This document shows, piece by piece, positions 13,487 to 55,263 of a DNA stretch of 55,263 nucleotides (its first letter is position 1; each line of letters starts with the position of its first letter). The DNA is from Lentisphaerota bacterium (GTDB taxonomy: Bacteria; Verrucomicrobiota; Kiritimatiellia; Kiritimatiellales; Pontiellaceae), in the NCBI GenBank assembly GCA_012729265.1, contig JAAYDL010000131.1, forward strand, positions 1 to 55,263, read 5' to 3'. Below the pieces are notes generated by a model. The model had not been told where the DNA came from and did no database searches. It worked only from the letters and a program-made list of their open reading frames with translations. The position numbers and the translations under genes are program-made.

Positions 13487-15100
13487 TTATTCAGACTCCA
13501 TTTCCGGTTTATATGCTTTATCCCAACATTGTTCCAATGCTTGGAAGATTACGGGCATCTCTGTTTCAAACTGGTTCTGAGCGATATTTTCAGCCATCCA
13601 TTTGGCCATTTTCTTTTTATCCGCAACAAACCTGCACGATTGTTTCAGCGTAGTCGGGTAATAATCTTCCAGTCCATTAACCGGAAGTGTGTGTATTTGT
13701 CCGTTGCGGTCAAGAAATCCATTTTCCCGTTTAAAATCTTCAAATCGAGGCTGTTTTGTTGGATCGGGCTTGTCACAAAGCAGAATAAGTTTGGTCTTAT
13801 AAATCGGACGGGCTTTGAGCGGCTTGAACACGCGGTTGAGCGCTTCCATATTCTGCCGTTGTTGCTCATCATCCCCGTTTGCAGGAAGAATCTGTATCTG
13901 AGCGCGTTCTGAATAAAAACGGTTGATTAATCCTGAGATGAAAACTTCTTCACTGGAGCCCTCAACGATCATGAAGTTGGCTGGAAGCAGAAGGTCGGCA
14001 GGATTTCCCCCGAGTAGTTGGTAAACGACATGTTGCCGCCCCGCATTAGCTACCGGCTCAATATTTGTACACTTATCCTCTTTGCAGACTTCAAAGATGG
14101 TTTGGTCGCTGTGTTCATCCGCAATAAACACCGAGGAATGGGTCGTTATAAAAACCTGATCGACGCCTGCTGTCAGATCAAGTAACGCCTGTTTCAATTG
14201 CCGCTGTCCGGTGGGGTGTAAATGAAGTTCAGCTTCATCAATAAAGAAAATGAAGCTTCGTCCCAGCGCTTCTTCCCGCCGGAAATCGGCGTGTGTTTTG
14301 ATGATCGCGAGCATTAAAGCCCGTTGCATTCCATCGCCTTTTTCTTCAGCAGTGGTTTTGACTCCGTCGTTCAGTCTGGTTTTGTAGTTCTTTAGTAACT
14401 CATCAAATTCGGGCTCTTCCACGTCAAAATCCACCTCGGAACAGTCTGGGAACTGTTGAGCCAAGTGATGCTGGACGCTGTCGCTAAGTTCTTTGAGTTT
14501 TTTCCGAACAGGAGACTCCGCCGATTGAAACAGCTTCTCAAAGGCGGCTTGAAAATCCTGATAGTCTTGGTTTTTCTCTAATACCTCGGCGACGACTCCT
14601 CCTAGCATTTGTCCGACTGGAGTTGTGCTTTTGTAGGAAGAAACGTCCTTTAGATTTTTTGTCGCCTCTACAAATTCAAAACGAGGGATGCAGTTGTTAA
14701 ACGTGCTGTCAGCACCGCAGGGTTGCTTCTTCCATTCATCCTTTTCTGGGTTGTAAAGCAGGCGGTTTTTCTCGTCCTGTGACGAGCGTTTTACCCGCAT
14801 AACATCAGATTCGCCGATTACGTTCCTTATTTTCTGCTGATTGTCTTCTTTGGAAATATTAGCGATGCCATCTTGGACCCCGGAAAACTCCACTTCTACA
14901 AACACTTCATCATCGGACAGGGCGTCTACATGCCGGATTTCTGCCAATGAACCTTTACCCGTATAAAACCATTCCACAGCCTCGAACAAATTGGTTTTCC
15001 CATGGTTATTCTGCCCGATGAGCACGTTGAACTTCGTTGGAGCAATCTCAACGTTTTTCAACGAACGGAAGTTTCGTACTGTAATTTTTGAAATCCTCAT
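13487..15100 (-). CDS. OLD-like AAA ATPase with TOPRIM segment
   Basis: A 537-residue ATP-dependent nuclease of overcoming-lysogenization-defect type. The N-terminal SMC-like ATPase has FRSLKNVEI, Walker A GQNNHGKTN (29-37), a signature-like EEKGDGMQRAL, Walker B FIFFIDEAELHLHP (near 285) and the H-loop ITTHSS. A short helical insertion (about 150-260) takes the place of a coiled coil. The TOPRIM part shows FMIVEGSSEEVFI (near 377) and LILLCDKPDP, with Glu and Asp in the usual places. GGGGGAAAG precedes ATG 15100. It lies in the middle of the defence-type operon, after the membrane-anchored unknown protein. OLD proteins are DNA nucleases that act in phage defence, alone or with partners. Which partner it uses here is unknown. 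Confidence 0.85.
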   Translation of the reverse strand: MRISKITVRNFRSLKNVEIAPTKFNVLIGQNNHGKTNLFEAVEWFYTGKGSLAEIRHVDALSDDEVFVEVEFSGVQDGIANISKEDNQQKIRNVIGESDVMRVKRSSQDEKNRLLYNPEKDEWKKQPCGADSTFNNCIPRFEFVEATKNLKDVSSYKSTTPVGQMLGGVVAEVLEKNQDYQDFQAAFEKLFQSAESPVRKKLKELSDSVQHHLAQQFPDCSEVDFDVEEPEFDELLKNYKTRLNDGVKTTAEEKGDGMQRALMLAIIKTHADFRREEALGRSFIFFIDEAELHLHPTGQRQLKQALLDLTAGVDQVFITTHSSVFIADEHSDQTIFEVCKEDKCTNIEPVANAGRQHVVYQLLGGNPADLLLPANFMIVEGSSEEVFISGLINRFYSERAQIQILPANGDDEQQRQNMEALNRVFKPLKARPIYKTKLILLCDKPDPTKQPRFEDFKRENGFLDRNGQIHTLPVNGLEDYYPTTLKQSCRFVADKKKMAKWMAENIAQNQFETEMPVIFQALEQCWDKAYKPEMESE

Positions 15101-15130: not shown

Positions 15131-16087
15131 TCATTCGCCGGTTTCGTTTTTCGCGAAATCAAATTTTAACGCGTTTTTTTCGTATTCCTTTAGTCGCTTA
15201 TACTTCTCCCCCTGAGGGGTCTCAACCGAGGCCTTTTCGTCGTGAACTTTGGTTACGACCTGTACTGTATATCCCGAATTTTGTTCAACACCGCACTCAT
15301 CGATTTTACGGGAAATAATCAAAACACAGTCAATGCAAGTCCCATTGATAAAAGAAACCCCGCCAGCTAAGACATCTGCCTTAAAAGCCGAATCGCTTAC
15401 CTTGAACGGAATCGATTCTCCCTTATAGATCCCGCGCCACTTGTATTTCCCTGCCTTGAGGACTGGGGCAATGATTTCAATCGTGGCATCTTCATCTATC
15501 ACTGGCTCAAGCTCATCCGACGTTAAAATGAACTTATGAAACTCAGCTCGCTTAACGGATTTTGGATCATCCGTTGGCTTGTTTTCTGAGTCCACCCCAA
15601 CCCAATCTACAGCAGTCACCTTTTGACAATTCAGCAGCCCTTCATAGAAATTCGATCTCCTTTTTCTCAGCTTGTGGCTATCCACAATCCCAGTGACGAT
15701 TTCTTCAGTCGGAGCGACGGACGTATCAGATGATTCTGATGCCCGCTTAAAACTTTCAACCTGATGGCGATAATATTCCTTTTGAAGAGCCATCAGCTCC
15801 CGATCAGTGTTCAGGTAATTGGAGATTACGTTAATCAGGATGCCGATAAACAATGATGCTAATAGCGGATGTTTTTTGACCTGTACCTTAAAAAAATCAA
15901 TCAGTCCGCCTTCAGCCAGAGCTTCCGAATCTAACTCAACTTGAATGCCGAGGATCTCAGCCAAATCCTGTGCAATAGCCAAAAGCTCTGCTTCACATTT
16001 ATTGCGAACAAACGCATCCATGAAGTGCGACTTGTCATCAAACAAGTAATGCAGCTCCAGCTTTTCGGCTATTTGAGTCATATCCAT
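15131..16087 (-). CDS. Unknown defence-island protein with one membrane segment
   Basis: I do not recognise a named family. The 318 residues divide into three parts. The N-terminal helical part (about 1-75) reads LELHYLFDDKSHFMDAFVRN then KCEAELLAIAQDLAEIL. One hydrophobic segment follows at about 76-96 (HPLLASLFIGILINVISNYL). The C-terminal part is beta-rich: EFHKFILTSDELEPV, then IEIIAPVLKAGKYKWRG, then SFINGTCIDCVLIISRKID. I have a loose memory of similar N-termini in uncharacterised proteins next to defence genes. It starts 150 bases after the methylase stop and ends 30 bases before the OLD-like ATPase start, so it belongs to the same operon. A membrane-tethered sensor or effector is possible, but this is speculation. 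Confidence 0.75.
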   Translation of the reverse strand: MDMTQIAEKLELHYLFDDKSHFMDAFVRNKCEAELLAIAQDLAEILGIQVELDSEALAEGGLIDFFKVQVKKHPLLASLFIGILINVISNYLNTDRELMALQKEYYRHQVESFKRASESSDTSVAPTEEIVTGIVDSHKLRKRRSNFYEGLLNCQKVTAVDWVGVDSENKPTDDPKSVKRAEFHKFILTSDELEPVIDEDATIEIIAPVLKAGKYKWRGIYKGESIPFKVSDSAFKADVLAGGVSFINGTCIDCVLIISRKIDECGVEQNSGYTVQVVTKVHDEKASVETPQGEKYKRLKEYEKNALKFDFAKNETGE

Positions 16088-16238: not shown

Positions 16239-19124
16239 CTAAATCAGCGTTTCCTTTGCCGTCATCTCCTCATACAGCTTAAACAAATGCTCCAGGCGTT
16301 CTTCGTCGGAGGTGAAGGGTTTACTCCGGTAGATGCGGTCAACGGCGAGGTCGAGTTGGTGGTGCGCTTCACGGAGTCCGGCGGGCATTTTGTCGGGATC
16401 GTAAAGCTGCGCCATCGTCTTTTCCGAATGCTTTTCCCGCTCTTCCAATACATTCCCCACATGCATCGTGATCGCCTGCTTCTGCTCCGCCGTCAATTCC
16501 GGGATCGGAAAATTGTTGTAACAGATCTCGGCAGAATAACGTATACGCGTCTCTAACCCGCCAGCCACAGCGCGCACCCATACCCCGTGCATTTCTGAAG
16601 ATAAAAAACCGAAAATATAAGGTTTCGCATCGTAAATCACATGCATTGCATTGGTGGCAATGACCGAACGATCTACAAATCCCATTGGAATGTATTCACG
16701 CCGTTCTGATGTTGTCGATGGAACAATAATAGAGTCGGAATCTTTGTGCGCACGTTGCGCAAGTTTGTGAGGAATTGCTGCATAGGCTCGCGTGGTCTTT
16801 GCCGGGGATTGCATTCGAAAATCATAAACCGCTTCTACCCGCTCGTTAATCGGCGGGATATTTTTAGCCAAATTGAGCTGTTCATCTTCGATCCACAAGC
16901 ACCAGCGCTCAGATCCTCGGATAAATTCCTCGGCACCAACTAAACGGCGAATCAACGGGGCGCTCTCGGGATAATCGGAAATCAATTGTTTCTTTTCCGC
17001 AGGCGACATAATTAAGTGCCCCCCATCACGCGCCATATTCCCCATGACCATTTTGGGGATCTTAGAAATCGGCGAGGTTAGTTTATGAACGCAAATGTTT
17101 CCACCCTCCGTCAGGTATGGACTGATGTTCGATACTGTTTTCGAAAGACCATCTTTGAATATAGTTTTCACGCCAGCGGATGGATTTCGAACCCCGACGA
17201 TTACACAAGTAACGCCAGCTCCGCCTTTGGCATTGTTCGTCCATTTAAACGATTGGTGGGCAAAACTGATTTCGAGTCCGCGAGAAAAGATACGGGGCCA
17301 GAGATAGCCAACCTGTTCACCTTGCGAAATAGAATTCGTCGATACAAAAGCAAATTTTGCATTTGATCCCTGTATGTATTCCGCTCCTTTCAAAAACCAG
17401 CAGGCAACGTAATCTGAATCCTTGTACTCTTCGCGGTTTTCAAAAACAGCGGCCATATCCGCTTTTTGATCTGCGGTCTGGTTTCTGGCACCCAAATACG
17501 GCGGGTTCCCAAGAATATAAATTTCATCCCCTTCGTTTTTCGGACAGACGGTTTCCCAGTCGATCCGGCAGGCGTTTCCGCACACGATATTGGCCCCGTC
17601 TTTGAGCGGAAGGGAGGTGAGCGAGTTTCCAAAGCGTTTGGTAAATTCCAGATTCATCTGGTGCTCGGCCAGCCAAAGCGACAGCGTGGCCGTTTCACAA
17701 GCGAAGTCGGCAATTTCAATCCCGTAAAACTGGTCCACAGTGATCCGGGAAACCGGAAAGGCGTTCATCGCCTCGAACAGTTCCATCTCCAGCTTGCGCA
17801 GTTCCTTGTAGGCGATAATCAGAAAGTTGCCCGATCCGCAGGCCGGGTCGAATATCTTCACCTTGGCGATCCGATCATGCAGCGCATGCAGCGCTTTCAT
17901 CCGCACGTTTTTCTGGTTCAGGTTCCGCGCCCGTTCCAGCTCCTCCTTGAAATCGTTCAGGAAAAGCGGTTCGATCACTTTCATGATGTTGGTGACGCTG
18001 GTGTAGTGCTGCCCCAGATTGTGCCGTTCCTCGGGGTCGATAACGGCCTGGAACATCGAGCCGAAAATGTCGGGATTGATATCCTTCCAGTTCAAGGAGC
18101 CCGCCTCGATCAGCATCCGCCGCGCCTTCGCCGAAAACACCGGAATATCGTAATGCTTCCGGAACAATCCCCCATTGACGTAAGGAAGAGATTTAACCGC
18201 AAAAGAACGCACAGATCGCAAAGACTCCCCATCCGTGTAATCCGTGGTTAAATTCTTTTTTTGCGTTCCTTGCGCTCCTTCGCGGTGAATTCCTCTCTCC
18301 CTGTCCGGTGTATCGAGCCAGTCGAAGAGCTGCTTGAAAAAGGCATCCAGATCGGAGCCGTCCTCGGCGGTATGCGATGCAATGGCATTGGACACTGCGT
18401 TTTCGGTAAAAATGCCGGTATCCTCGGCAAATAGGCAGAACAACAGCCGCGCCAGAAAAACATTCATTGCATGGATATCGTGGCGCAGATAATCGGGATT
18501 ATCCTGTTTGATCGCGTCAAACAGCTTGGCCATCTTTTCGGCGGCCTTCACATCCGCCGGGTTTTCGTTCGACAGCTTCGTCTTTTCCATCCCCGCCCAC
18601 GGCAGGAAAAAGTCAAAATGCGTTTCCAACCCACAGAACTCGATATCCAGCGTGTCGCCGGTTTTGCGGTCAACCGCCAGCAAACGGTTGAACGTCTGTT
18701 TTTGTAGGGCTGGCATGGTTGCAGACCTGCCAGCCGCGGCCGGAAGGTTTTCAACCGTTCCCTCCCTACAATCGCCGACGACAATCAAAAAGCGCGGATC
18801 ATTCGTCTTGGCAGCCTTCGCCGTCTTCATTTTCTCGATTTCAACGTAGAGCGAGCGTCCCGCTTGCTTATTGTCGTTCGGCTCATCCTGATTAGGCAAG
18901 CGAGACGTTTGCTCTACATTTGGTCCAACGGTCCTGAACCACACCTTCTTTTTGAGCAAAACATCGCCCGGCGTTATCGCAAGATTCAACTGACCGGCCT
19001 TCAGCCGGGCAATCGTCGCCTTGGGCGTGCCATACGCCAGCAGCAGCTCAAAGATAAACTCATCCTTAGCTGGCGGAGATTCCACCAACTGCCTCACATT
19101 TTCCGCGACCTCAGCAAACTTCAT
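16239..19124 (-). CDS. Class I N6-adenine DNA methyltransferase (YeeA/MmeI-type) with three repeat insertions
   Basis: A 961-residue N6-adenine methylase. The N-terminus (FIFELLLAYGTPKATIARLK) resembles B. subtilis YeeA as I recall it. SAM motif I is FDPACGSGNFL (near 424) and catalytic motif IV is GNPPY (near 538). A target-recognition-like region follows and ends with LETRIRYSAEICYNNFPIPE. MFQAVIDPEERHNLGQHYTS lies before motif I. Three stretches look foreign and coincide with palindromic repeats: residues about 69-93, 118-142 and 279-311. Without them the protein would be about 880 residues. It is the first gene of the operon (AGGGTG before ATG 19124). It should methylate host DNA to protect it from a partner nuclease, perhaps the GIY-YIG protein with the helicase. 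Whether the interrupted protein is active cannot be told. Confidence 0.88.
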   Translation of the reverse strand: MKFAEVAENVRQLVESPPAKDEFIFELLLAYGTPKATIARLKAGQLNLAITPGDVLLKKKVWFRTVGPNVEQTSRLPNQDEPNDNKQAGRSLYVEIEKMKTAKAAKTNDPRFLIVVGDCREGTVENLPAAAGRSATMPALQKQTFNRLLAVDRKTGDTLDIEFCGLETHFDFFLPWAGMEKTKLSNENPADVKAAEKMAKLFDAIKQDNPDYLRHDIHAMNVFLARLLFCLFAEDTGIFTENAVSNAIASHTAEDGSDLDAFFKQLFDWLDTPDRERGIHREGAQGTQKKNLTTDYTDGESLRSVRSFAVKSLPYVNGGLFRKHYDIPVFSAKARRMLIEAGSLNWKDINPDIFGSMFQAVIDPEERHNLGQHYTSVTNIMKVIEPLFLNDFKEELERARNLNQKNVRMKALHALHDRIAKVKIFDPACGSGNFLIIAYKELRKLEMELFEAMNAFPVSRITVDQFYGIEIADFACETATLSLWLAEHQMNLEFTKRFGNSLTSLPLKDGANIVCGNACRIDWETVCPKNEGDEIYILGNPPYLGARNQTADQKADMAAVFENREEYKDSDYVACWFLKGAEYIQGSNAKFAFVSTNSISQGEQVGYLWPRIFSRGLEISFAHQSFKWTNNAKGGAGVTCVIVGVRNPSAGVKTIFKDGLSKTVSNISPYLTEGGNICVHKLTSPISKIPKMVMGNMARDGGHLIMSPAEKKQLISDYPESAPLIRRLVGAEEFIRGSERWCLWIEDEQLNLAKNIPPINERVEAVYDFRMQSPAKTTRAYAAIPHKLAQRAHKDSDSIIVPSTTSERREYIPMGFVDRSVIATNAMHVIYDAKPYIFGFLSSEMHGVWVRAVAGGLETRIRYSAEICYNNFPIPELTAEQKQAITMHVGNVLEEREKHSEKTMAQLYDPDKMPAGLREAHHQLDLAVDRIYRSKPFTSDEERLEHLFKLYEEMTAKETLI
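18193..18288. repeat. Family D palindrome inside the methyltransferase gene
   Basis: The arms TTAACCGCAAAAGAACGC and the reverse of GCGCTCCTTCGCGGTGAA pair imperfectly across 96 bases. The centre holds TCCGTGTAATCCGTGG as in family B. On the minus strand it is translated as a Gln/Thr/Lys-rich stretch including TTDYTDG, between DTPDRERG and SLPYVNGGLF. Confidence 0.8.
18702..18771. repeat. Family A palindrome inside the methyltransferase gene
   Basis: The 70-base element is bounded by TTGTAGGG and CCCTACAA and contains an internal CTGGCA...TGCCAG hairpin, as in the intergenic family A copies. It is translated as residues about 118-141 (REGTVENLPAAAGRSATMP). Confidence 0.85.
18845..18918. repeat. 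Third palindrome inside the methyltransferase gene
   Basis: Two 23-base arms (18845-18867 and 18896-18918) are inverted copies with 19 of 23 bases matching, of the type GTAGAGCnAnCGTCnCGCTTGC. The element is read in frame as residues about 69-93 (VEQTSRLPN ... KQAGRSLYV). Confidence 0.85.
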
Positions 19125-26376: not shown

Positions 26377-26820
26377 CTATGCTTTATCTTCTTCGGACGC
26401 AGCTTCGGCAGACTCTTCAGCTGCGGGAGCCTCTTCAGCAACTTCTTCAGCGGCTTCTGCTTCAGCGGCAGGAGCCTCTTCAGCAACTTCTTCCTCAACG
26501 ACTTCTTCAGCGGCTTCTGCTTCGGCAGCAGCGGCCACTTCTTCTTCCTTCACTTCGCCGGAAACAGCTTTTTCAACCGGAAGCTCTCGCGCTTTTTTGA
26601 TGAGGCTGTTGGCGGTATCGGAAGGCTGAGCTCCTGTGCCGAGCCAATAGTCAACGCGATCCAAGTTCAGCGAAAAGTTATTGCCTTCCTGTTTAGGGTC
26701 GTACCAACCCAACGTTTCAATGAACCGTCCAGTCGTCGCATAGCGTCCGTCCTGAACAATCACACGGTAGAATGCGGCATTGCGGCTGCCCATTCTGCGA
26801 AGTCGAATTTTTACTGCCAT
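26377..26820 (-). CDS. rpsP: 30S ribosomal protein bS16 with long acidic C-terminal tail
   Basis: Residues 1-82 are a normal bS16: MAVKIRLRRMGSRNAAFYR, VVxQDGR-like VIVQDGRYATTGRFIE and LGWYDPK. After about residue 83 comes a tail of some 60 residues made almost only of Ala and Glu (repeats of EEVAEEAPAAEAEAAE), ending SEEDKA. In DNA the tail is a set of imperfect CTTCTTCAGCGGCTTCTGCT repeats. Acidic extensions on ribosomal proteins are known in several phyla, but their function is not settled. It lies 45 bases after ffh and 2 before khpA, so it is cotranscribed. Confidence 0.94.
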   Translation of the reverse strand: MAVKIRLRRMGSRNAAFYRVIVQDGRYATTGRFIETLGWYDPKQEGNNFSLNLDRVDYWLGTGAQPSDTANSLIKKARELPVEKAVSGEVKEEEVAAAAEAEAAEEVVEEEVAEEAPAAEAEAAEEVAEEAPAAEESAEAASEEDKA

Positions 26821-28409: not shown

Positions 28410-28631
28410 TCAACGCAAACGATCAAAGAGATGCTCCAGCCCGTTGGCTTTAATGACATAGACGGTTTCAAGCTGCTGCCCGAGCTTGCCGCCGGGAAAG
28501 CCCTGCTGCCGGAACCAGACCACGTACGGCTCCGGCAGATCGATCAGCAGGCGGCCTTTATACTTTCCAAAAGGCATCCGCGCTTCGGCCAGGGCCCGCA
28601 TAAATTCAGGATCGGGAACCGCTTCTTCCAT
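28410..28631 (-). CDS. DUF3820 family small protein
   Basis: A 73-residue protein with the DUF3820 pattern: ARMPFGKYKGRLLIDLPEPY, VVWFRQQGFPGGKLGQQLE. Members occur widely as single small proteins; one Pseudomonas member has been called a putative quorum-sensing-regulated virulence factor, but no activity is established. Its start lies next to the CCCCGCTGC hairpin of a family A repeat, so its leader is made of repeat DNA. A good ribosome site is not obvious. Confidence 0.8.
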   Translation of the reverse strand: MEEAVPDPEFMRALAEARMPFGKYKGRLLIDLPEPYVVWFRQQGFPGGKLGQQLETVYVIKANGLEHLFDRLR

Positions 28632-28636
28632 AATAA

Positions 28637-28790
28637 ACCTCCCCGCTGCAATCAGCGGGGTATCTAATCTTGTAGGGCGGGAACGGCTGAAAGCCTTCCC
28701 GCCGCGGCTGAAAGGTCTACGACCATTTCAGCCCTACAATTGCTCGCAGCAAGCTGCGGGATATTAAACCCAACGCTTCGCAATAAATTC
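28637..28790. repeat. Family A composite repeat, full-length copy
   Basis: The order is CCTCCCCGCTGCAATCAGCG hairpin, TTGTAGGG, hairpin CGGGAACGGCTGAAAGCC TTCCCG, hairpin GGCTGAAAGGTC/GACCATTTCAGCC, CCCTACAA, then GCAGCAAGCTGCGGG and TAAACCCAACGCTTCG. The same order and right-hand tail occur at 54650-54800. Confidence 0.9.
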
Positions 28791-28803
28791 TGTACATTGA
28801 GTG

Positions 28804-39863: not shown

Positions 39864-41288
39864 ATGAGCATTTATCGTTCTGTCTGCATACTTTTTGCCA
39901 CAATTGTTGCCCTGCCCGCTGCAGCATCCGCGCTCTACAGCAAGGTTGCCGGCATCGACGATGTTCAAATCCGGCGGGTGCTGCTCCGCCCGGATAAGGA
40001 GCCGTCGCTCGCCGTAGCCTCTGAAAGCGCTGTTTATCTCGGCGATCCCGGATCGTTCCGAAAGGTTTTGGTGCTCAAAGATGAAGAGCTCAACCATCTC
40101 TCCGCCGACAACGAGGTGCTGTATGCCGCAGGCAGCCGAAACGGCTACCGAATTGAAAGCTCCGCAAAACGCATCTTTTCCGCCGACGAGGAAGAAACCA
40201 TCCACTTTATCCTCCCGCATCGGAACCGCCTCTACATCGGCACCAGCCGGCGGCTCGTTTATGCCGAAAAGAAACTGCTCAATTGGCAAGCACTCCCCGC
40301 ACTCGCTTCCACCGCCGTTTATTCCATGCAGCCCGCGGGCGACAACCTCTACATCGTCGGCGAAGACGGCGTCTATCGGCTCGACGCCGCCGGCCCGCTT
40401 CAAAAAATCTTCTCCACCCGAATAAGCAGCGACGGCCTGCGCGCCCGCTGTATTAAAGCCGACATTCAACAACCCGATCACCTATGGCTCTGCACCAACA
40501 ACGGACTGTATGCCTCCATCGACGGCGGCGCATCATGGCAGAAAATCTTTATCGATGGACTCGGCAGCGCCTCGGTCAACTATCTCGCACAAAATCCCGC
40601 CTCGCCGGAAACACTCTATCTATGCAGCGATGCCGGGCTCTTTAAAATCGAAGCGACTACCGGCAAATCGGAAATTCTGTATCAGGGCATCTCCACCTCC
40701 AGAATCCAATGGATCGACTTCAGTGCCGCCGGCGAAATCTATCTGGCCACCGATCAAGGCCTCTTTAAAAGTGATCCTACGCCGACCGAAACATCTGCCC
40801 CTGCCATCGGCATCAACCAACTGCTGATCGGCGAACCCACCATTCGGGAAGTACAGGAAGCCGCGCTCCTTTATAACTCCGTCCACCCGACCAAAACGCA
40901 GAAATGGAAAAAGAAACTCAAATATCGCGCGCTCCTGCCCAAATTCAGCGTCGACTACGACAAAACCATCGGCTCCAGCTTTTCGCAGGCCGGACACTAT
41001 TACGCCACCGGTCCCTACGACTGGGGCGTCTCGCTGACCTGGGACATGGGCGATCTCCTCTGGAACTCTTACGAGGACGATATCGACAACCGCACCAAAC
41101 TCACCACCCAGCTCCGCATGGATATCCTCGACGAAGTCAACCGGCTCTACTTCGAGCGCCTCCGCCTCAAACACGAAATTGCGCAGGCCGATCCCGCAGT
41201 GCCAGACACCTTCGGAAAAATCCTGCGCCTCGCCGAACTCACCGCCACCCTCGACGGCTACACCGGCGGACTCTACAGCGCTCCATAA
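39864..41288 (+). CDS. Exported beta-propeller protein with a C-terminal outer-membrane-type domain, function unknown
   Basis: The 474-residue protein has a signal peptide (cut probably after AAASA). Residues 30-320 show short repeats of a two-component-regulator/sortilin-like propeller: LWLCTNNGLYASIDGGASWQ, LYLCSDAGLFKIE and IYLATDQGLFKSDP, each with a GLF/GLY turn. The C-terminal 150 residues change style: VQEAALLYNS, KYRALLPKFSVDYDK, YDWGVSLTWDMGDLLWN, then QLRMDILDEVNRLYFERLRL. The latter recalls segments in outer-membrane proteins of delta-proteobacteria-like bacteria. GGGGGAAG precedes ATG 39864. A family A repeat starts directly at the stop. It is probably envelope-bound; no substrate or partner is evident. 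Confidence 0.7.
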   Translation: MSIYRSVCILFATIVALPAAASALYSKVAGIDDVQIRRVLLRPDKEPSLAVASESAVYLGDPGSFRKVLVLKDEELNHLSADNEVLYAAGSRNGYRIESSAKRIFSADEEETIHFILPHRNRLYIGTSRRLVYAEKKLLNWQALPALASTAVYSMQPAGDNLYIVGEDGVYRLDAAGPLQKIFSTRISSDGLRARCIKADIQQPDHLWLCTNNGLYASIDGGASWQKIFIDGLGSASVNYLAQNPASPETLYLCSDAGLFKIEATTGKSEILYQGISTSRIQWIDFSAAGEIYLATDQGLFKSDPTPTETSAPAIGINQLLIGEPTIREVQEAALLYNSVHPTKTQKWKKKLKYRALLPKFSVDYDKTIGSSFSQAGHYYATGPYDWGVSLTWDMGDLLWNSYEDDIDNRTKLTTQLRMDILDEVNRLYFERLRLKHEIAQADPAVPDTFGKILRLAELTATLDGYTGGLYSAP

Positions 41289-41450
41289 ACCTCCCCACTG
41301 CAAGCAGCGGGGTATCTTCTTTGTAGGGCGGGAACGGCTGAAAGCCTTCCCGCCGCGGCTGGACGCGCAGCGAGGCTGAACACTTGGAAGCCAACGTCTG
41401 CGACCATTCCAGCCCTACAATTTTCGTAGAAGCGCACGTCCCCGTCGCTT
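41286..41450. repeat. Family A repeat (variant) followed by one family C unit
   Basis: It starts with the CCTCCCCACTGCAAGCAGCG hairpin at the stop codon. TTGTAGGGCGGGAACGGCTG and CCAGCCCTACAA enclose a longer, altered middle than in other copies (it includes CGCGCAGCGAGGCTGAACAC). A family C unit TCGTAGAAGCGCACGTCCCC lies at 41424-41450 and is cut from the main array by the IS element. Confidence 0.85.
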
Positions 41451-41452
41451 AA

Positions 41453-43493
41453 CCCAAGTTTCTTATTGGAAGCTGTAACTCATTGAAACACAACGGCTGC
41501 GTTTCTGGAGGCACTACAAAACGCTACATGGTCACCTCGCTTCGGACGGGGGTGTAAGCGGTTTTCGAGTCGATGCCGAGCGCGGTGTAGATCCGGGCCT
41601 GTTCGGCATCGGGGTTGCTGGGTTTGCGCAGGGTGACGATGCGTCCGTCTCGAAGAGGGAGGCGGGTGCTGACGAGACTGTGGGTGCGAAGAATCCGGCG
41701 GATGGTGCTCCATTCGCGGTGATCGTCGCTGGCTTCGAGTTTTTTCCGGATCCAGTTGAGCAGGTGGTAGGCGAGGACGCTGATAAAGATGTGGCCGTCG
41801 ACGCGGCCTTCGAGCTGGTGGTGGTTGGGACGCAGGCCGAGGGCGCTTTTGAGCATACGGAAGCCGGTTTCGGCTTTGAGCAGGCTCATATAGAGTTCCC
41901 AAAGGGTGACGGCGTCGATGGATTGATCGGTTTTTAAGACATAGCTGCCGCAAAGGGCGAGGGCGTCTTCCATTTTTTGGTCGTCGCGCTCGAGGTGCAG
42001 TTGAGTGCCGCGGCGTTCGAGGGTGTAGAACCGATTTACGTGCGGATGCTTTTTCTGGAGGCGACCGATTTTCTGATCGATGAGGTGCGGCTTTTTGAGG
42101 CGGCCTTTTTCGATACGGTCTTTGAGGGCGGCGGCATCGGTGAGGAAGCGGGCTTCGGCGGAAGAAATCATGGCGGTTTCTTTAAGGCGGCGTTGCTGGC
42201 TTCGGCAGAGGATGAGCTGCTGGCTGGGATCGTCGGGATCGATGATGGTTTTGACTTCGACCTGCTGATCGGCCGGACGTCCGGGGATCGGAACGAAATC
42301 CTCTTGAGCAAAAGCGTCGGCATATTTTATCCGGCTCCCGCGCGTGATGTTGATGAGGTAGGCATAGCCGAGTTTTTTGAGTAAAGCAATGTTCTCGGCC
42401 GAAGCGAATCCGGCATCGAGCACGACCACGGGCTTTTCGCCGACTTCGAGCCGGTCGAACCGGGATAGCATGTATTTCAGCGTGGTGGTGTCGGCCATGT
42501 TTCCTGCAAACACTTCATGCGCAAGCGCGTTGCCCTGTTCATCAAAGGCCATGCCGACGGATACCTGTCGGCAGTCGTTGCGTTTCTGTTTGTTTTTGCC
42601 GTGCTTTGCCTTGGGATTGGATCCGCAAACGCCTTCGAAATGGGTGTTGGTCACGTCGTACAAGACCAGCTTGCGACGGGATGAAAAGAGCGTCTGCTCA
42701 TGGTCGCGCAGCTTTTTTTCGATGGTTTCGCGATGCCCGAGCAACGCGTCACTGGTACGGTAGAGTCGATCCTTCATGGTCTTGGTCACCCGCAGATCCA
42801 GCAGTTCTGGAAGCGCCGTCCTCTCCGCCCACTCGATCAGCGCCCACTCGCTCAGGGGCTCGATCAGACGGTTGACCACCATCAATTGCGCTGTTGCGAT
42901 CTGCTTTTTCGGCAGATCAAGCTCCTCAAGCAGATGGGTCAAGCCGAGCGCATTCCATGCTTCCAAGGCGACCAGTTCCGGGCCGAATTCCACCACATTT
43001 TCCGTTTCCACCTGATCGAGCAATACGCCGTCGAGAACCGGACGTTGGCTTGTCGGCCGTGTAGATTTTGAGCGTTCGGCCAGCGATACGATTCGCGCCA
43101 CCCAGGCCGCTCCCTCCTTCGAAAGCTGATCCTCAAACAGATCGACTTCGCCCCGCAGGCGGAGCTCAGCCATGCGAGCAATCGTTTTTAATTCATCCGC
43201 AGGGAGTTGCGCATCTCCAAGCGATGCGACAACGCGCTGGCGAGGTTGTCCTTCTGAATTGCGATACGACTCAATCAGTTGAACAATCGGCGTGTTTTTT
43301 ATCGTTTTAGTCCTGAAATACATAGGCGCATCCTATCACAGGAAATGAAAAAATCAACCCGACGAAATACGAATTAGGCACTACAACGCGACTTTCAAAA
43401 ACTCACCCATTGAAGATGTAGGACTTACAGATATTGAAGGGTCAAAAAAAGACGAAAAAAGGCGTTTTCAAATGGCCATTTGAGAAACTCGGG
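41453..43493 (-). mobile_element. IS1634-type insertion sequence, about 2.04 kb
   Basis: The terminal inverted repeats are CCCAAGTTTCT (41453-41463) and AGAAACTCGGG (43483-43493), 10 of 11 bases matching. TTAA flanks both (41449-41452 and 43494-43497), a probable 4-base target duplication. Joining the flanks gives GTCGCTTAACTCAAC, nearly the same as GTCGCTTATCTCAAC inside the neighbouring family C array. The element therefore inserted within that array. One transposase gene fills it. Confidence 0.8.
41524..43323 (-). CDS. IS1634/IS4-group DDE transposase
   Basis: A 599-residue DDE transposase. The N-terminus (MYFRTKTIKNTPIVQLIESY) is typical of IS1634 members. Catalytic residues fit YDVTNTHFEG (Asp near 221), VVLDAGFAS (Asp near 299) and LLKAETGFRMLKSALGLRP (Glu near 483, the YREK-like region). 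The gene looks intact, so the element may be able to move. It is transcribed from inside the element on the minus strand. Confidence 0.92.
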   Translation of the reverse strand: MYFRTKTIKNTPIVQLIESYRNSEGQPRQRVVASLGDAQLPADELKTIARMAELRLRGEVDLFEDQLSKEGAAWVARIVSLAERSKSTRPTSQRPVLDGVLLDQVETENVVEFGPELVALEAWNALGLTHLLEELDLPKKQIATAQLMVVNRLIEPLSEWALIEWAERTALPELLDLRVTKTMKDRLYRTSDALLGHRETIEKKLRDHEQTLFSSRRKLVLYDVTNTHFEGVCGSNPKAKHGKNKQKRNDCRQVSVGMAFDEQGNALAHEVFAGNMADTTTLKYMLSRFDRLEVGEKPVVVLDAGFASAENIALLKKLGYAYLINITRGSRIKYADAFAQEDFVPIPGRPADQQVEVKTIIDPDDPSQQLILCRSQQRRLKETAMISSAEARFLTDAAALKDRIEKGRLKKPHLIDQKIGRLQKKHPHVNRFYTLERRGTQLHLERDDQKMEDALALCGSYVLKTDQSIDAVTLWELYMSLLKAETGFRMLKSALGLRPNHHQLEGRVDGHIFISVLAYHLLNWIRKKLEASDDHREWSTIRRILRTHSLVSTRLPLRDGRIVTLRKPSNPDAEQARIYTALGIDSKTAYTPVRSEVTM

Positions 43494-43501
43494 TTAACTC
43501 A

Positions 43502-43680
43502 ACATGCGACGACGACGTCGCATCTACGACAGTTCAACAGCATGCGACGAGGACGTCGCATCTACAAAGCACACTCCTCGTAGAATCGCACGACGTCCCC
43601 GTCGCTTGCCCCATCGTAGAAGCCGACGTCCCCGTCGCTTATCTCAACCTCGTAGAAGCCGACGTCCCCGTCGCTTATTG
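43502..43680. repeat. Family C repeat array
   Basis: Two units of the form GCGACGAGGACGTCGCATCT are followed by three inverted units TCGTAGAAGCCGACGTCCCC ending GTCGCTT, with a period of 36-37 bases. Single units lie at 41424-41450 and in the field after 19290. Confidence 0.85.
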
Positions 43681-43866
43681 CAGCCTAGCGATCCATGAAA
43701 AAACAAAAAAGGCTCTACGTATATTTTTATGGTAAATGTGGTTTTCCGACAGGATAACAAGATCATCGGGGTAATGCTTCCAAAGGAGTTCTCCTCTTCC
43801 CATCGATCTCTCATCTCCATCATGAACTTCCGCTATCCATTGTAATTTAATGCCATAAAAAACCAT
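43675..43866 (-). CDS. Doubtful small ORF, 63 residues
   Basis: An open frame with AGGAGG almost touching its ATG. The product (MVFYGIKLQWIAEVHDGDER ... ARLQ) matches nothing I recognise. Its end runs into the family C array. The ribosome site is too close to the start for efficient use, so it may be a fragment. Confidence 0.25.
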   Translation of the reverse strand: MVFYGIKLQWIAEVHDGDERSMGRGELLWKHYPDDLVILSENHIYHKNIRRAFFVFSWIARLQ

Positions 43867-53098: not shown

Positions 53099-54649
53099 AT
53101 GAAAAAACTCGTTGGCTTCGTTCTTCTCACCATCATCGCCATTGTGGTGCTGAACACATTCATCTCCCTCCCCAAAAACAGTCGATATATCCCGGAAAAT
53201 TCTGCGGCTTTGATCCGCTTTGATATTGCTTCGCTGGTCATGAAAGCCGACTACAAAGAGCTGCTGGAAAACAAAACCATCGCGGACGCACTCGAAGAGC
53301 TAGGAACGCCGTTTACCGACTGGGCTGAAAAACCCTCGAGCACGGGCATCGATTGGCGCGGAACCGCCTATTTTGCTCTCACTCTTCCGGAAGAGGAATA
53401 CGGCGATCCCACTTTCAGCCTCATCATTCCCGTCAAAAACAGCAAAAAACTTGAATCCGCGCTGACGGATTTATGGAAAGAAGAGAACGATGAATCCATA
53501 AAGCTGCTCAACGCGAATGGTTACACCCGGATTGAAATGGAGGAGGAGAGCGAAGTTCAAATCGGGTTTAATAAAAAGGCGTTGATCATCGCCTTTTCTG
53601 ACTTTGACCCCGTTGATCCCAAATTTATCGACAACCTCTTTGTGCAGAAAAAAGCACCGAAGCAGCCGGGTCTCCGTCCGTTTCTCCGCAGCAATGATGA
53701 TATCGCTGGGTGGATTAACTATAAGGCGCTGAAAAATGTGGCTACCGGTCTAAAGGTTGCTCTTTCTGGGGGCAACTCGGATGCCGTAACGCTGGCGCTG
53801 AATTTTGAAAAAGGGAAGATTGAAGGATCAGCCACGGCATACTATGCGGATGGCTCGCGCAAAAAAATGGCCGGAAAAGGTATCTCTTCTTCTCTCACAA
53901 AAGCACTCCCGCGCGACGCTCTTGCCTACGCGGCCGTCAGCGTCGATATGAAAAACTGTACCGATGAGTTACTCTCCAATCTCGAATACGTTGGCCTCTC
54001 CAAGGACATGCTCGACGAAGGACTCCGCAGCATGATCGGACTCTCTGTCAGCGAAACACAGGAACTCTTTTCCGGCGATGTGGCACTGGCATTTAAAGAC
54101 GTAAAGCTGGTGGAGCACACATTGGATTACGGGGAAGGCAGCACTGTCTATAAAACGCCAGTCCCCTCATTTATTATCGCCGCCGATATCGACAGCGACG
54201 ACCACTGTAAAAAGCTCCTCAGCACGCTGGAGGAAAACGGCACCCTCGAAATGCTTAACCAAAGCGATGTTGAACTGTTTGAGCGCAAAGGAACGATGTA
54301 TTGCGGTATCGGCGACTTCATGGACAACGTGAAGGAGAAAGGCAAAGCCGAGAAAGCCGTTAATGGAAAGATCAAGCGTCTGCTCAAAAAGCACCATGCT
54401 GCGATCTATGTGGATTTGGAGCGCACTGCAGATCTCATCGAAAAATTCGATTTACTGAATGAAAAGCCGCTCCGCCTAGTCAGAACCTTCAAATCAGCAG
54501 AACTGACGGGCGACTTTAAACGCAAAACAGAAGAAGCGGTCTTATTGATTGAAATGGCCGACAAAAAGCAGAACAGCCTGAAGACCATTATCGAACAGGC
54601 ACTGGATCTGTTTTTGGTACGGATTTACGTCCTGTCTGCCCCACAATAA
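53099..54649 (+). CDS. DUF4836-like exported or membrane-anchored protein
   Basis: A 516-residue protein with an N-terminal hydrophobic helix (GFVLLTIIAIVVLNTFI), either an uncleaved anchor or a signal peptide. Then comes YIPENSAALIRFDIASLVMK, like the N-terminus of DUF4836 proteins, which are common in Bacteroidetes and have no known role. The rest alternates strands and helices without catalytic motifs (NDDIAGWINYKALKNVATGL, LPRDALAYAAVSVDMKNC). It follows the photolyase by 33 bases and may share its transcript. The family assignment is moderate. Confidence 0.7.
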   Translation: MKKLVGFVLLTIIAIVVLNTFISLPKNSRYIPENSAALIRFDIASLVMKADYKELLENKTIADALEELGTPFTDWAEKPSSTGIDWRGTAYFALTLPEEEYGDPTFSLIIPVKNSKKLESALTDLWKEENDESIKLLNANGYTRIEMEEESEVQIGFNKKALIIAFSDFDPVDPKFIDNLFVQKKAPKQPGLRPFLRSNDDIAGWINYKALKNVATGLKVALSGGNSDAVTLALNFEKGKIEGSATAYYADGSRKKMAGKGISSSLTKALPRDALAYAAVSVDMKNCTDELLSNLEYVGLSKDMLDEGLRSMIGLSVSETQELFSGDVALAFKDVKLVEHTLDYGEGSTVYKTPVPSFIIAADIDSDDHCKKLLSTLEENGTLEMLNQSDVELFERKGTMYCGIGDFMDNVKEKGKAEKAVNGKIKRLLKKHHAAIYVDLERTADLIEKFDLLNEKPLRLVRTFKSAELTGDFKRKTEEAVLLIEMADKKQNSLKTIIEQALDLFLVRIYVLSAPQ

Positions 54650-54800
54650 ACCTCCCCGCTGCAACCAGCGGGGAATCTTCTTTGTAGGGCGGGAACGGCT
54701 GAAAGCCTTCCCGCCACGGCTGGAAGGTCTGCGACCATTCCAGCCCTACAATTTTAGCAGCAAGCTACGGGCTATTTAACCCAACGCTTCGTAACAAAAT
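54650..54800. repeat. Family A composite repeat, full-length copy
   Basis: It begins with the hairpin CCCCGCTGCAACCAGCGGGG right after the stop, then TTGTAGGG ... CCCTACAA with two inner hairpins, then GCAGCAAGCTACGGG and TTAACCCAACGCTTCG, the same as 28637-28790. The first hairpin may serve as terminator for the upstream gene. Confidence 0.9.
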
Positions 54801-54802
54801 CC

Positions 54803-55263
54803 TTACCGGCACGAAACCGCGCGAAAGGCTTCGGGCAGTTTATCGATGATGTCCGTAGCGATCATGGACGCCTGTGATTTTTCGGCGGCCGCGAGGTCGC
54901 CGGCATGGCCGTGCAGCCACACCGCAGCACAGGCCGCTTCACAAGGGTCCATTCCCTGAGCCGCCAATCCGGCGAGCAGTCCGGCCAGCACATCGCCCGA
55001 CCCGCCGGTAGCCATGCCGGGATTTCCGGTCATATTGATTCCCGCCGGACGATCCGGCGCCGCCACAATCGTTCCCGCACCCTTCAGCACCACCGTTGCC
55101 CGCAGGCGCGCAGCCGCCATTTTGGCCAGCGTTAGACGATCCTCCTGCACCTCGTCTACCTTGAGATCAAACAGCGCCGCAAATTCTCCGGGGTGCGGCG
55201 TCAGAATGACCGGGCACGAAGCGGCGGCAATCGCGTCAATATGATCCGCCAGCACCGTAATGG
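54803..55263 (-). CDS. nnrD: ADP-dependent NAD(P)H-hydrate dehydratase, partial (5' end outside window)
   Basis: The C-terminal part of NnrD, which repairs hydrated NAD(P)H using ADP. The frame runs from the window edge and includes ILTPHPGEFAALF, VVLKGAGTIVAAPD and the strongly conserved GNPGMATGGSGDVLAGLLAG, holding the catalytic Asp. About 150 residues are visible. In many bacteria it is fused to the NnrE epimerase at the N-terminus; this cannot be seen here. An ATG-less start within the window (GTG 55255) is internal and not the real start. Confidence 0.92.
   Translation of the reverse strand, partial: ITVLADHIDAIAAASCPVILTPHPGEFAALFDLKVDEVQEDRLTLAKMAAARLRATVVLKGAGTIVAAPDRPAGINMTGNPGMATGGSGDVLAGLLAGLAAQGMDPCEAACAAVWLHGHAGDLAAAEKSQASMIATDIIDKLPEAFRAVSCR

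Follow-up and report, generated by a model that had tools for sequence, protein, structure and literature searches.

Repetitive extragenic palindromic sequences (REPs) of the GTAG class have been described in frame within open reading frames, often as head-to-head dimers, where each dimer or group adds 20–30 amino acids (Di Nocera et al. 2013, PMC3733652, in the sections available). According to the same sections, both uvrA genes of Opitutus terrae, a member of the PVC superphylum, carry two in-frame REP inserts each, many of the genes hosting REPs function in DNA replication or repair, and the genes of REP-associated tyrosine transposases (RAYTs) are flanked by REPs. The accessible part of PMC6006769 reports frame-preserving REP insertions in subclass 2.4 tnpA-REP genes, and that of PMC8266576 regards the spread of REPs as poorly understood and mobilisation by TnpA-REP as a possibility. 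In-frame translation of Rickettsia palindromic elements is described for many genes (PMC10969869, in the portion available), and the sections covered of PMC8049555 and PMC3116915 contain nothing relevant on in-frame insertion. Here we describe a 55,263-nucleotide stretch of DNA from a Lentisphaerota bacterium (contig JAAYDL010000131.1, hereafter the window), in which the gene of an MmeI-type IIG restriction-modification/methyltransferase protein (16239..19124, minus strand, assigned by Pfam and a Protein Data Bank (PDB) match) contains three palindromic inserts, designated C, B and A.

The window belongs, as contig 72, to a draft genome of 3.41 Mb that is 94% complete and is referred to as G000; other genomes have G-numbers and loci have L-numbers, and comparisons within the order used 43 genomes. 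From the analyses below, we consider it very probable that C and B are REPIN-like, non-autonomous REP dimers placed by RAYTs in loops of the MmeI-type enzyme, that A is a third, unrelated repeat, and that in this order the RAYT clade of the C family exists mostly as in-frame cassettes within host genes.

Three palindromic inserts in one methyltransferase gene

The gene forms a single unbroken reading frame of 961 amino acids with no stop codon. It has the full set of five MmeI domains in Pfam (N, hel, MTase, TRD and C), and a structure match is MmeI itself (PDB 5hr4, E 2.8e-188). A D-ExK endonuclease motif was not obvious in the consensus, although no search aimed at it was made. The methyltransferase domain starts at residue 405 (Pfam), and all three inserts are located upstream of it, between secondary-structure elements. 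Insert C (18845..18918, minus strand; residues about 69–93, VEQTSRLPNQDEPNDNKQAGRSLYV) is an inverted dimer of GTAG REPs with half-sites at 18897–18917 (minus) and 18846–18866 (plus). Insert B comprises 81 extra bp (18696..18776, minus strand; residues 117–143) around a core GTAG REP dimer at 18702–18771 (TTGTAGGG...CCCTACAA). Insert A (18193..18288, minus strand; residues about 279–311) is a palindrome whose arms, of 9-bp period, surround a second motif, CCACGGATTACACGGATGG, and it is not a GTAG REP. An earlier sequence-only reading of this DNA had placed three elements here, with about 80 added residues and neither a stop nor a frameshift, and its coordinates, frames and peptides were right.

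The protein was aligned with 81 homologues (83 matches minus 2 duplicates), and an insert was counted as carried when the stretch was half-filled or more. Insert C (residues 69–86 tested) was present in one homologue and absent from 80, insert B (residues 117–143) was present in none of the 81, and extra residues at insert A (residues 279–300 tested) were found in two and were absent from 79. The sole aligned carrier of C is L064, the nearest named homologue, which comes from a Pontiellaceae metagenome-assembled genome and is the same DNA as L145 of G037, in the same order. At site A, L064 instead has a pair of in-frame repeats of different types, GAATATCGAACAAGGAATATCGAA and TTAACCACGGAAGACACTG (L064, about 1000–1140), and the second homologue with extra residues at this site is L128.

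An AlphaFold (AF2) model of the 961-residue protein, built with 49 of the available sequences, had a mean predicted local distance difference test score (pLDDT) of 83.6 and a predicted template modelling score (pTM) of 0.72. The segments with pLDDT below 50 were residues 74–90 (C), 121–141 (B) and 280–306 (A), and elsewhere three more of 5–6 residues each. The model thus presents the three inserts as low-confidence loops, predicted to be disordered, in an otherwise well-folded protein. As single-stranded DNA, all three fold better than shuffled sequences, with z values of −3.8 (C), −3.4 (B) and −4.2 (A). Three distinct repeat kinds have entered one gene in frame, as had been proposed, and presumably they are translated as extra loops of the methyltransferase.

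The accumulation of three inserts in one gene could be a sign that the methyltransferase is a decaying pseudogene, in which the inserts are not yet frame-breaking; among the 81 aligned homologues, moreover, the REP inserts are shared only with L064, plus the fragment L208. Against decay are the absence of a stop in 961 codons, the intact conserved columns and the confident fold outside the inserts, and the whole gene compared with L064 gives a proportion of nonsynonymous differences (pN) of 0.21 and of synonymous differences (pS) of 0.66. Judged from these values, the methyltransferase has been under purifying selection since its split from L064, and we regard the pseudogene explanation as unlikely. 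On the preferred reading, the enzymatic function would have been retained.

REP families of the inserts and their transposases

C and B both start with GTAG and end with CTAC in two inverted halves, with GTAG at the foot of the stem-loop and CTAC at the far end of the dimer, which is the plan of a GTAG REP dimer. For B, 15 copies of 69–71 bp, namely the methyltransferase copy and 14 others in the same genome, align in register. The exact B half-site gave 43 matches in this genome, as compared with none for a reversed control pattern, and occurs in 22 of the 43 genomes of the order (3 control matches across all 43). With one mismatch allowed, the C half-site gave 16 matches, as compared with none for the reversed control, and occurs in 28 of the 43 genomes (one control match across all 43). 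B and C are dispersed in multiple copies, as GTAG REP dimers are. The window contains two C half-site matches with 0.00 expected in shuffles; since the half-site patterns were derived from copies already seen, these two are not independent evidence.

The same REPs stand beside RAYTs in congeners, for both families. C dimers (up to 3 mismatches) flank the RAYT in XseA on both sides in G010, G014, G026 and G027. In G017, a B dimer is located on each side of a RAYT that passes the NCBIfam RAYT cut-off, and in G014, B half-sites lie on both sides of a RAYT frame; the incompleteness of this second frame slightly lowers our confidence that RAYTs placed C and B.

Insert A lacks the GTAG foot, and elsewhere in its own genome only partial arms were found, in 20 further matches. 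By its sequence, A is a third repeat kind, distinct from the GTAG REPs C and B. A pattern tried for A across the order yielded 48 matches in 25 of the 43 genomes, as compared with 7 for the control, and none in the own genome; it does not describe the A of this genome and was rejected, and a wide occurrence of A-like motifs in the order is at most hinted at. Matching copies elsewhere in the genome, on which the sequence-only reading depended, are found for all three inserts, those of A being partial arms.

That reading had also likened the inserts to Rickettsia palindromic elements, and the likeness holds as far as they are in frame and presumably translated. Selfish DNA of this type, with a built-in coding frame and unrelated to REPs and RAYTs, would explain why palindromic inserts of several families lie in frame in predicted disordered loops, and A, which has no RAYT link, could be such an element. 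However, the ends of C and B are GTAG/CTAC and their REPs also adjoin RAYTs, whereas the intragenic Rickettsia repeats are of the CGTC type or RPE-1 in the sections available of PMC3733652, and C is read in different frames in different genes. From their description as GTAG-type REP dimers, C and B are most probably not Rickettsia-type elements, an identity that was rejected for them, and the explanation as a whole is improbable.

To place the in-gene copies in context, repeat regions were surveyed in every tenth contig (38 stretches of up to 20 kb, 330,636 bases, 10% of the genome) and in the window. Among 66 regions, 49 were noncoding on both sides, 7 were coding on one side, 4 were coding in a single frame, 3 were between different frames and 3 were at edges. 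The 29 B loci fetched, some of them overlapping, were outside genes in 28 cases, the sole in-gene one being the methyltransferase copy. The 13 C loci of the genome include in-frame copies in three genes, those of the methyltransferase, XseA and a protein kinase, and among 21 A matches two besides the methyltransferase are in frame (L002 and L003). In-gene copies are exceptional, and by holding three of them the methyltransferase gene stands out. The counts of 49 in 66 and 28 in 29 led us to reject a general preference of the repeats for coding sequence. The sequence-only reading had suggested an unusual tolerance; as a general property this is not supported, given the B loci and the mere 4 of 66 regions with same-frame coding sequence on either side. 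The coding-compatible frame that it offered instead fared differently at two levels. Of the 6 possible reading frames, 4 are free of stops in the B copy of this gene, 2 in the C copy and 1 in the A copy, and C is read in another frame in the kinase gene. A built-in frame is thus only partly supported for the short elements, for which the survival of insertions that stay open is enough; for RAYT cassettes taken whole, described below, the idea stands. The kinase copy (L059, G000:C236) is a C-type REP dimer in frame within a protein with a Ser/Thr kinase domain (KCSASVPLASDSPSASETHALL). L002 and L003 (G000:C275 and C182) carry A-type repeats in frame in a linker (TTKYTKD...ELTAKERKEHKK); L002 is a kinase/FGE protein by Pfam, and L003 is a similar frame.

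Several observations weigh against the explanation that we prefer. The own genome, a draft in 385 contigs, yielded no RAYT accompanied by C-type REPs, and the RAYTs beside B-type REPs likewise come from congeners and not from it. RAYTs were present in none of the 43 fetched C loci (13 own, L051–L063, and 30 from relatives, L203–L232) and in just 2 of 49 B loci, most repeat copies are located outside genes, and for insert A no mobiliser was identified. The last point concerns the age of insert C, which is at the same site in the query and L064; a C-type REP also occupies it in L208, a fragment from the edge of a G014 contig, and L147 (G015, from the genus of the window) has no C insert. DNA identity between the query and L064 is 83% in the C insert, 72% over residues 1–66 and 71% over residues 94–116. 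Silent differences number 4 in 16.5 sites within the insert and 39.5 in 61.3 sites in its flanks (p about 0.005, with rounded counts). Since the insert is less silently diverged than its flanks, these sequences fit better with C having been repeatedly or recently inserted at one site, or kept similar by gene conversion, than with one quiet old insertion.

RAYT frames inside host genes

Using the RAYT in XseA as the query (E 1e-15), we found 67 RAYT matches in 31 of the 43 genomes of the order. Forty-three of these frames, in 25 genomes, have at least 100 same-frame residues on both sides, 12 are one-sided and 12 stand alone. Host labels were given by scanning representatives and assigning the remainder by flank similarity. 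PriA hosts 17 frames, a CCA-adding/poly(A)-polymerase type protein 10, XseA 9, a B12-radical-SAM DUF4080 protein 9 (at two sites), and HypF, a mevalonate diphosphate decarboxylase-like protein and the 3' end of TatD 2 each, while CmoB, Fic, HsdR and an unidentified protein (L337) host one each. The HxH motif is present in all 67 frames, and the Y of YIxxNP, which we take to be the catalytic tyrosine of RAYTs, in 65. One of six embedded frames scanned (L339, 86.7 bits) passes the 80-bit cut-off of NCBIfam NF047646, and the other five score 59–75 bits. Embedded RAYTs have no stop of their own. In 51 of the 55 embedded frames (4 are without the conserved start region), an in-frame ATG occurs within 25 codons before that region in 8, and ATG, GTG or TTG in 26.

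The genome of the window has three RAYTs of the C family clade, located in the radical-SAM protein (L339, G000:C212), PriA (L338, C178) and CmoB (L340, C119), and none is free-standing. Each has its own, presumably translated REP-like arrays in frame, and those flanking the RAYT in the CmoB frame are D-type GTAG REPs of the AAGCGACGTCCCCGTCGCTT class. More distant Y1 transposases also occur in this genome, some of them free-standing. One Y1-transposase-like protein (L163, G000:C247, 1018–2037) itself has two in-frame repeats (EKGNHEKGNQKGNHEG), and its neighbours may be CRISPR-type genes, which they resemble. At L157 (G000:C204, about 1–330 and 700–1330), other repeat arrays (e.g., SPEGIPMHSHGQRPRKRKPRWGLYGF) are present on both sides of an IS200-like transposase.

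The distribution of the embedded RAYTs follows the host gene. On the RAYT tree, the 12 host labels need 11 changes, the minimum, as compared with 43.7 in shuffles, of which 0 of 200 were as low. PriA copies form two lineages, XseA copies two that are not resolved in the tree, and the radical-SAM clade includes the HypF and Fic copies. More than one lineage per gene and a mixed clade indicate that RAYT moves between genes occur. In 11 pairs compared, dN/dS was 0.05–0.20 for the RAYT (10 computed) and 0.06–0.21 for the host parts (7 computed), with silent sites near saturation; by these ratios, the embedded RAYTs are under purifying selection. In two XseA pairs, silent divergence is greater in the RAYT than in the host sequence, evidence against simple joint descent in these cases.

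A match to XseA, the exonuclease VII large subunit, was obtained in 42 of the 43 genomes, and the 42 frames were read. At a single place before the VGRGGGS motif, 27 frames are empty (10–13 residues), 6 have a REP dimer or remnant and 9 have a RAYT. The REP-only frames are those of the own genome, G015, G018, G021 and G025, together with G037, which has a 15-residue remnant. In the RAYT-bearing frames, REP-like sequence adjoins the RAYT and the frame is open, giving 636–683 amino acids in the six complete ones; in G014, G022 and G023 the contig stops within the frame. The own XseA (L233, G000:C141) has a C-type REP dimer in frame (VDQASRLTRGKRDACSTLP) at this place, which in relatives is empty or occupied by a whole RAYT. 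In 14 loci examined, direct repeats flank the RAYT (alignments of 58–258 nt with 68–98% identity in 12 loci, and 19–20 nt in the other two), so that a REP dimer in frame could be what remains after these repeats recombine. The own XseA dimer could have been left in this way or could be an independent REP insertion. On a tree of 40 of the 42 frames (G012, empty, and G022, with RAYT, were left out), the empty state takes 7 changes, 5 of them forced by well-supported branches; the shuffle mean was 11.8, and thus the empty state is more clustered than in shuffles. The XseA of G002, counted as empty and sister to the REP-bearing G021, retains KRNVKQ, three codons beyond the usual empty site, and looks as if it had lost a REP. 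At the PriA site, 14 of 30 loci have a RAYT (called by script). Inspection by eye showed REP-like sequence without a RAYT in 5 (G003, G036, G021, G016 and G009) and neither in 6 (G012, G002, G020, G005, G006 and G041), and 5 are unreadable at the site.

Whole RAYT cassettes placed in conserved host genes and grouped by host gene resemble inteins, and the repeats might be removed from RNA or protein in an intron- or intein-like manner, so that the mature enzyme lacks them. However, no intein or Hint family appeared among the Pfam matches of 40 proteins scanned, not all of which contain a RAYT, and a splicing domain would not fit into a REP dimer, which makes removal very unlikely. An assembly or binning artefact, suggested by the tendency of repeats to break contigs and by the 6 of 12 one-sided RAYT frames that reach the end of the fetched DNA, is scarcely credible given two-sided frames in 25 of the 43 genomes, including G028 and G031 (listed with 5 and 7 contigs), and the recurrence of empty, REP-only and RAYT states at one place.

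In the phylum as a whole, 76 of 240 genomes had a RAYT match. Frames of at least 400 amino acids made up 29 of 134 among the matches listed outside the order, as compared with 53 of 67 within it. Ten outside frames were scanned with Pfam; seven had a host family together with Y1_Tnp, and three (L356, L360 and L362) had no Y1_Tnp match at 1e-5. Host domains lie on both sides of Y1_Tnp in L342 (Eco57I methylase), L343 (valyl-tRNA synthetase) and L347. The last of these (G191) is an MmeI-type enzyme, of the same family as the window gene, with an in-frame RAYT between REP-like arrays.

RAYTs act on REP hairpins, and by this action they would move REP dimers. On the reading that we prefer, RAYTs of two families would have placed C and B in loops of the methyltransferase, and each insert would have survived by entering a loop, keeping the frame and meeting no stop, which would give a protein with three loops of about 22–33 residues. 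The cassette in a host gene would consist of REPs, a RAYT without its own stop, and REPs again. Whole cassettes may persist because their frame is tied to that of a needed gene, and REP-only sites may be the footprints of cassettes or separate landings. Beyond the methyltransferase, we think it likely that this RAYT clade leads an intein-like life without splicing. Its members would lie in frame in particular host genes (PriA, XseA, the CCA-adding-type enzyme, the B12-radical-SAM protein, HypF and others), having lost their own stop and mostly their ATG; they would be produced solely in fusion with the host protein, be under purifying selection together with it, and enter and leave repeatedly with in-frame REP dimers left behind. 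The REPs of the methyltransferase would then be the small change of this system.

The window and its relation to known systems

Downstream of the methyltransferase gene, the window encodes a PADLOC candidate defence protein, PDC-S42 (15131..16087, minus strand), and an OLD-like/AAA_15 ATPase (13487..15100, minus strand). The D-type GTAG REP occurs as three direct repeats at 43581..43685 (no strand assigned). Composite elements of about 160–170 bp are located at 28628–28795, 41285–41456 and 54645–54806, where outer sequence with CCCCGCTGCA surrounds a B REP dimer; the last of them (54645..54806, no strand assigned) thus holds a B-family copy outside genes. The stretch at 26387–26541 is repetitive, with TCTTCAGC-like units.

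The embedded RAYTs bear on the mobilisation of REP elements and on the persistence of RAYTs in genomes. If a needed protein includes a RAYT, any frameshift or stop arising in the transposase would cost the host a key enzyme, which is a simple and testable reason for such persistence. At the PriA and XseA sites, with empty, REP-only and whole-cassette states at one place, insertion, excision and tolerance would be directly measurable. RAYT surveys that filter on length and gene fusion may have overlooked a group, and translated REPs are suggested as the origin of some odd repeat peptides in databases. In-frame REPs were already known, and the methyltransferase is a new case of them. A literature search conducted mostly without subscription journals and preprints gave no description of complete RAYTs lying within host genes, and host-gene-bound RAYT lineages have, as far as we found, not been described.

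Inteins lie in frame at fixed places of conserved genes, with a patchy presence and with lineages tied to host genes. Unlike inteins, the cassettes described here have no splicing domain that we found, their mobile enzyme is a HUH transposase, and their REP-only states stay in frame.

The inserts share with Rickettsia palindromic elements the in-frame position in protein-coding genes. They differ in lineage, and C and B, described as GTAG-type rather than CGTC-type, differ also in sequence class; the Rickettsia elements have no RAYT link in the portions of the sources available.

C and B also resemble the intragenic GTAG REPs (PMC3733652), which in the sections covered are likewise hairpins, often dimers, in frame, with two inserts in one gene. 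Unlike those cases, two dissimilar REP families and a third repeat type here share one restriction-modification gene, and entire RAYT genes lie in frame in host genes, which the sections covered do not mention. As in REPINs with their RAYTs and in the REPtrons of TnpA-REP (PMC6006769, PMC8266576 and PMC3116915, in the parts available), a HUH transposase is flanked by its own REPs and REP dimers are dispersed in the genome. REPtrons are described in those parts as free-standing genes, whereas the RAYTs found here are embedded in the genes of their hosts.

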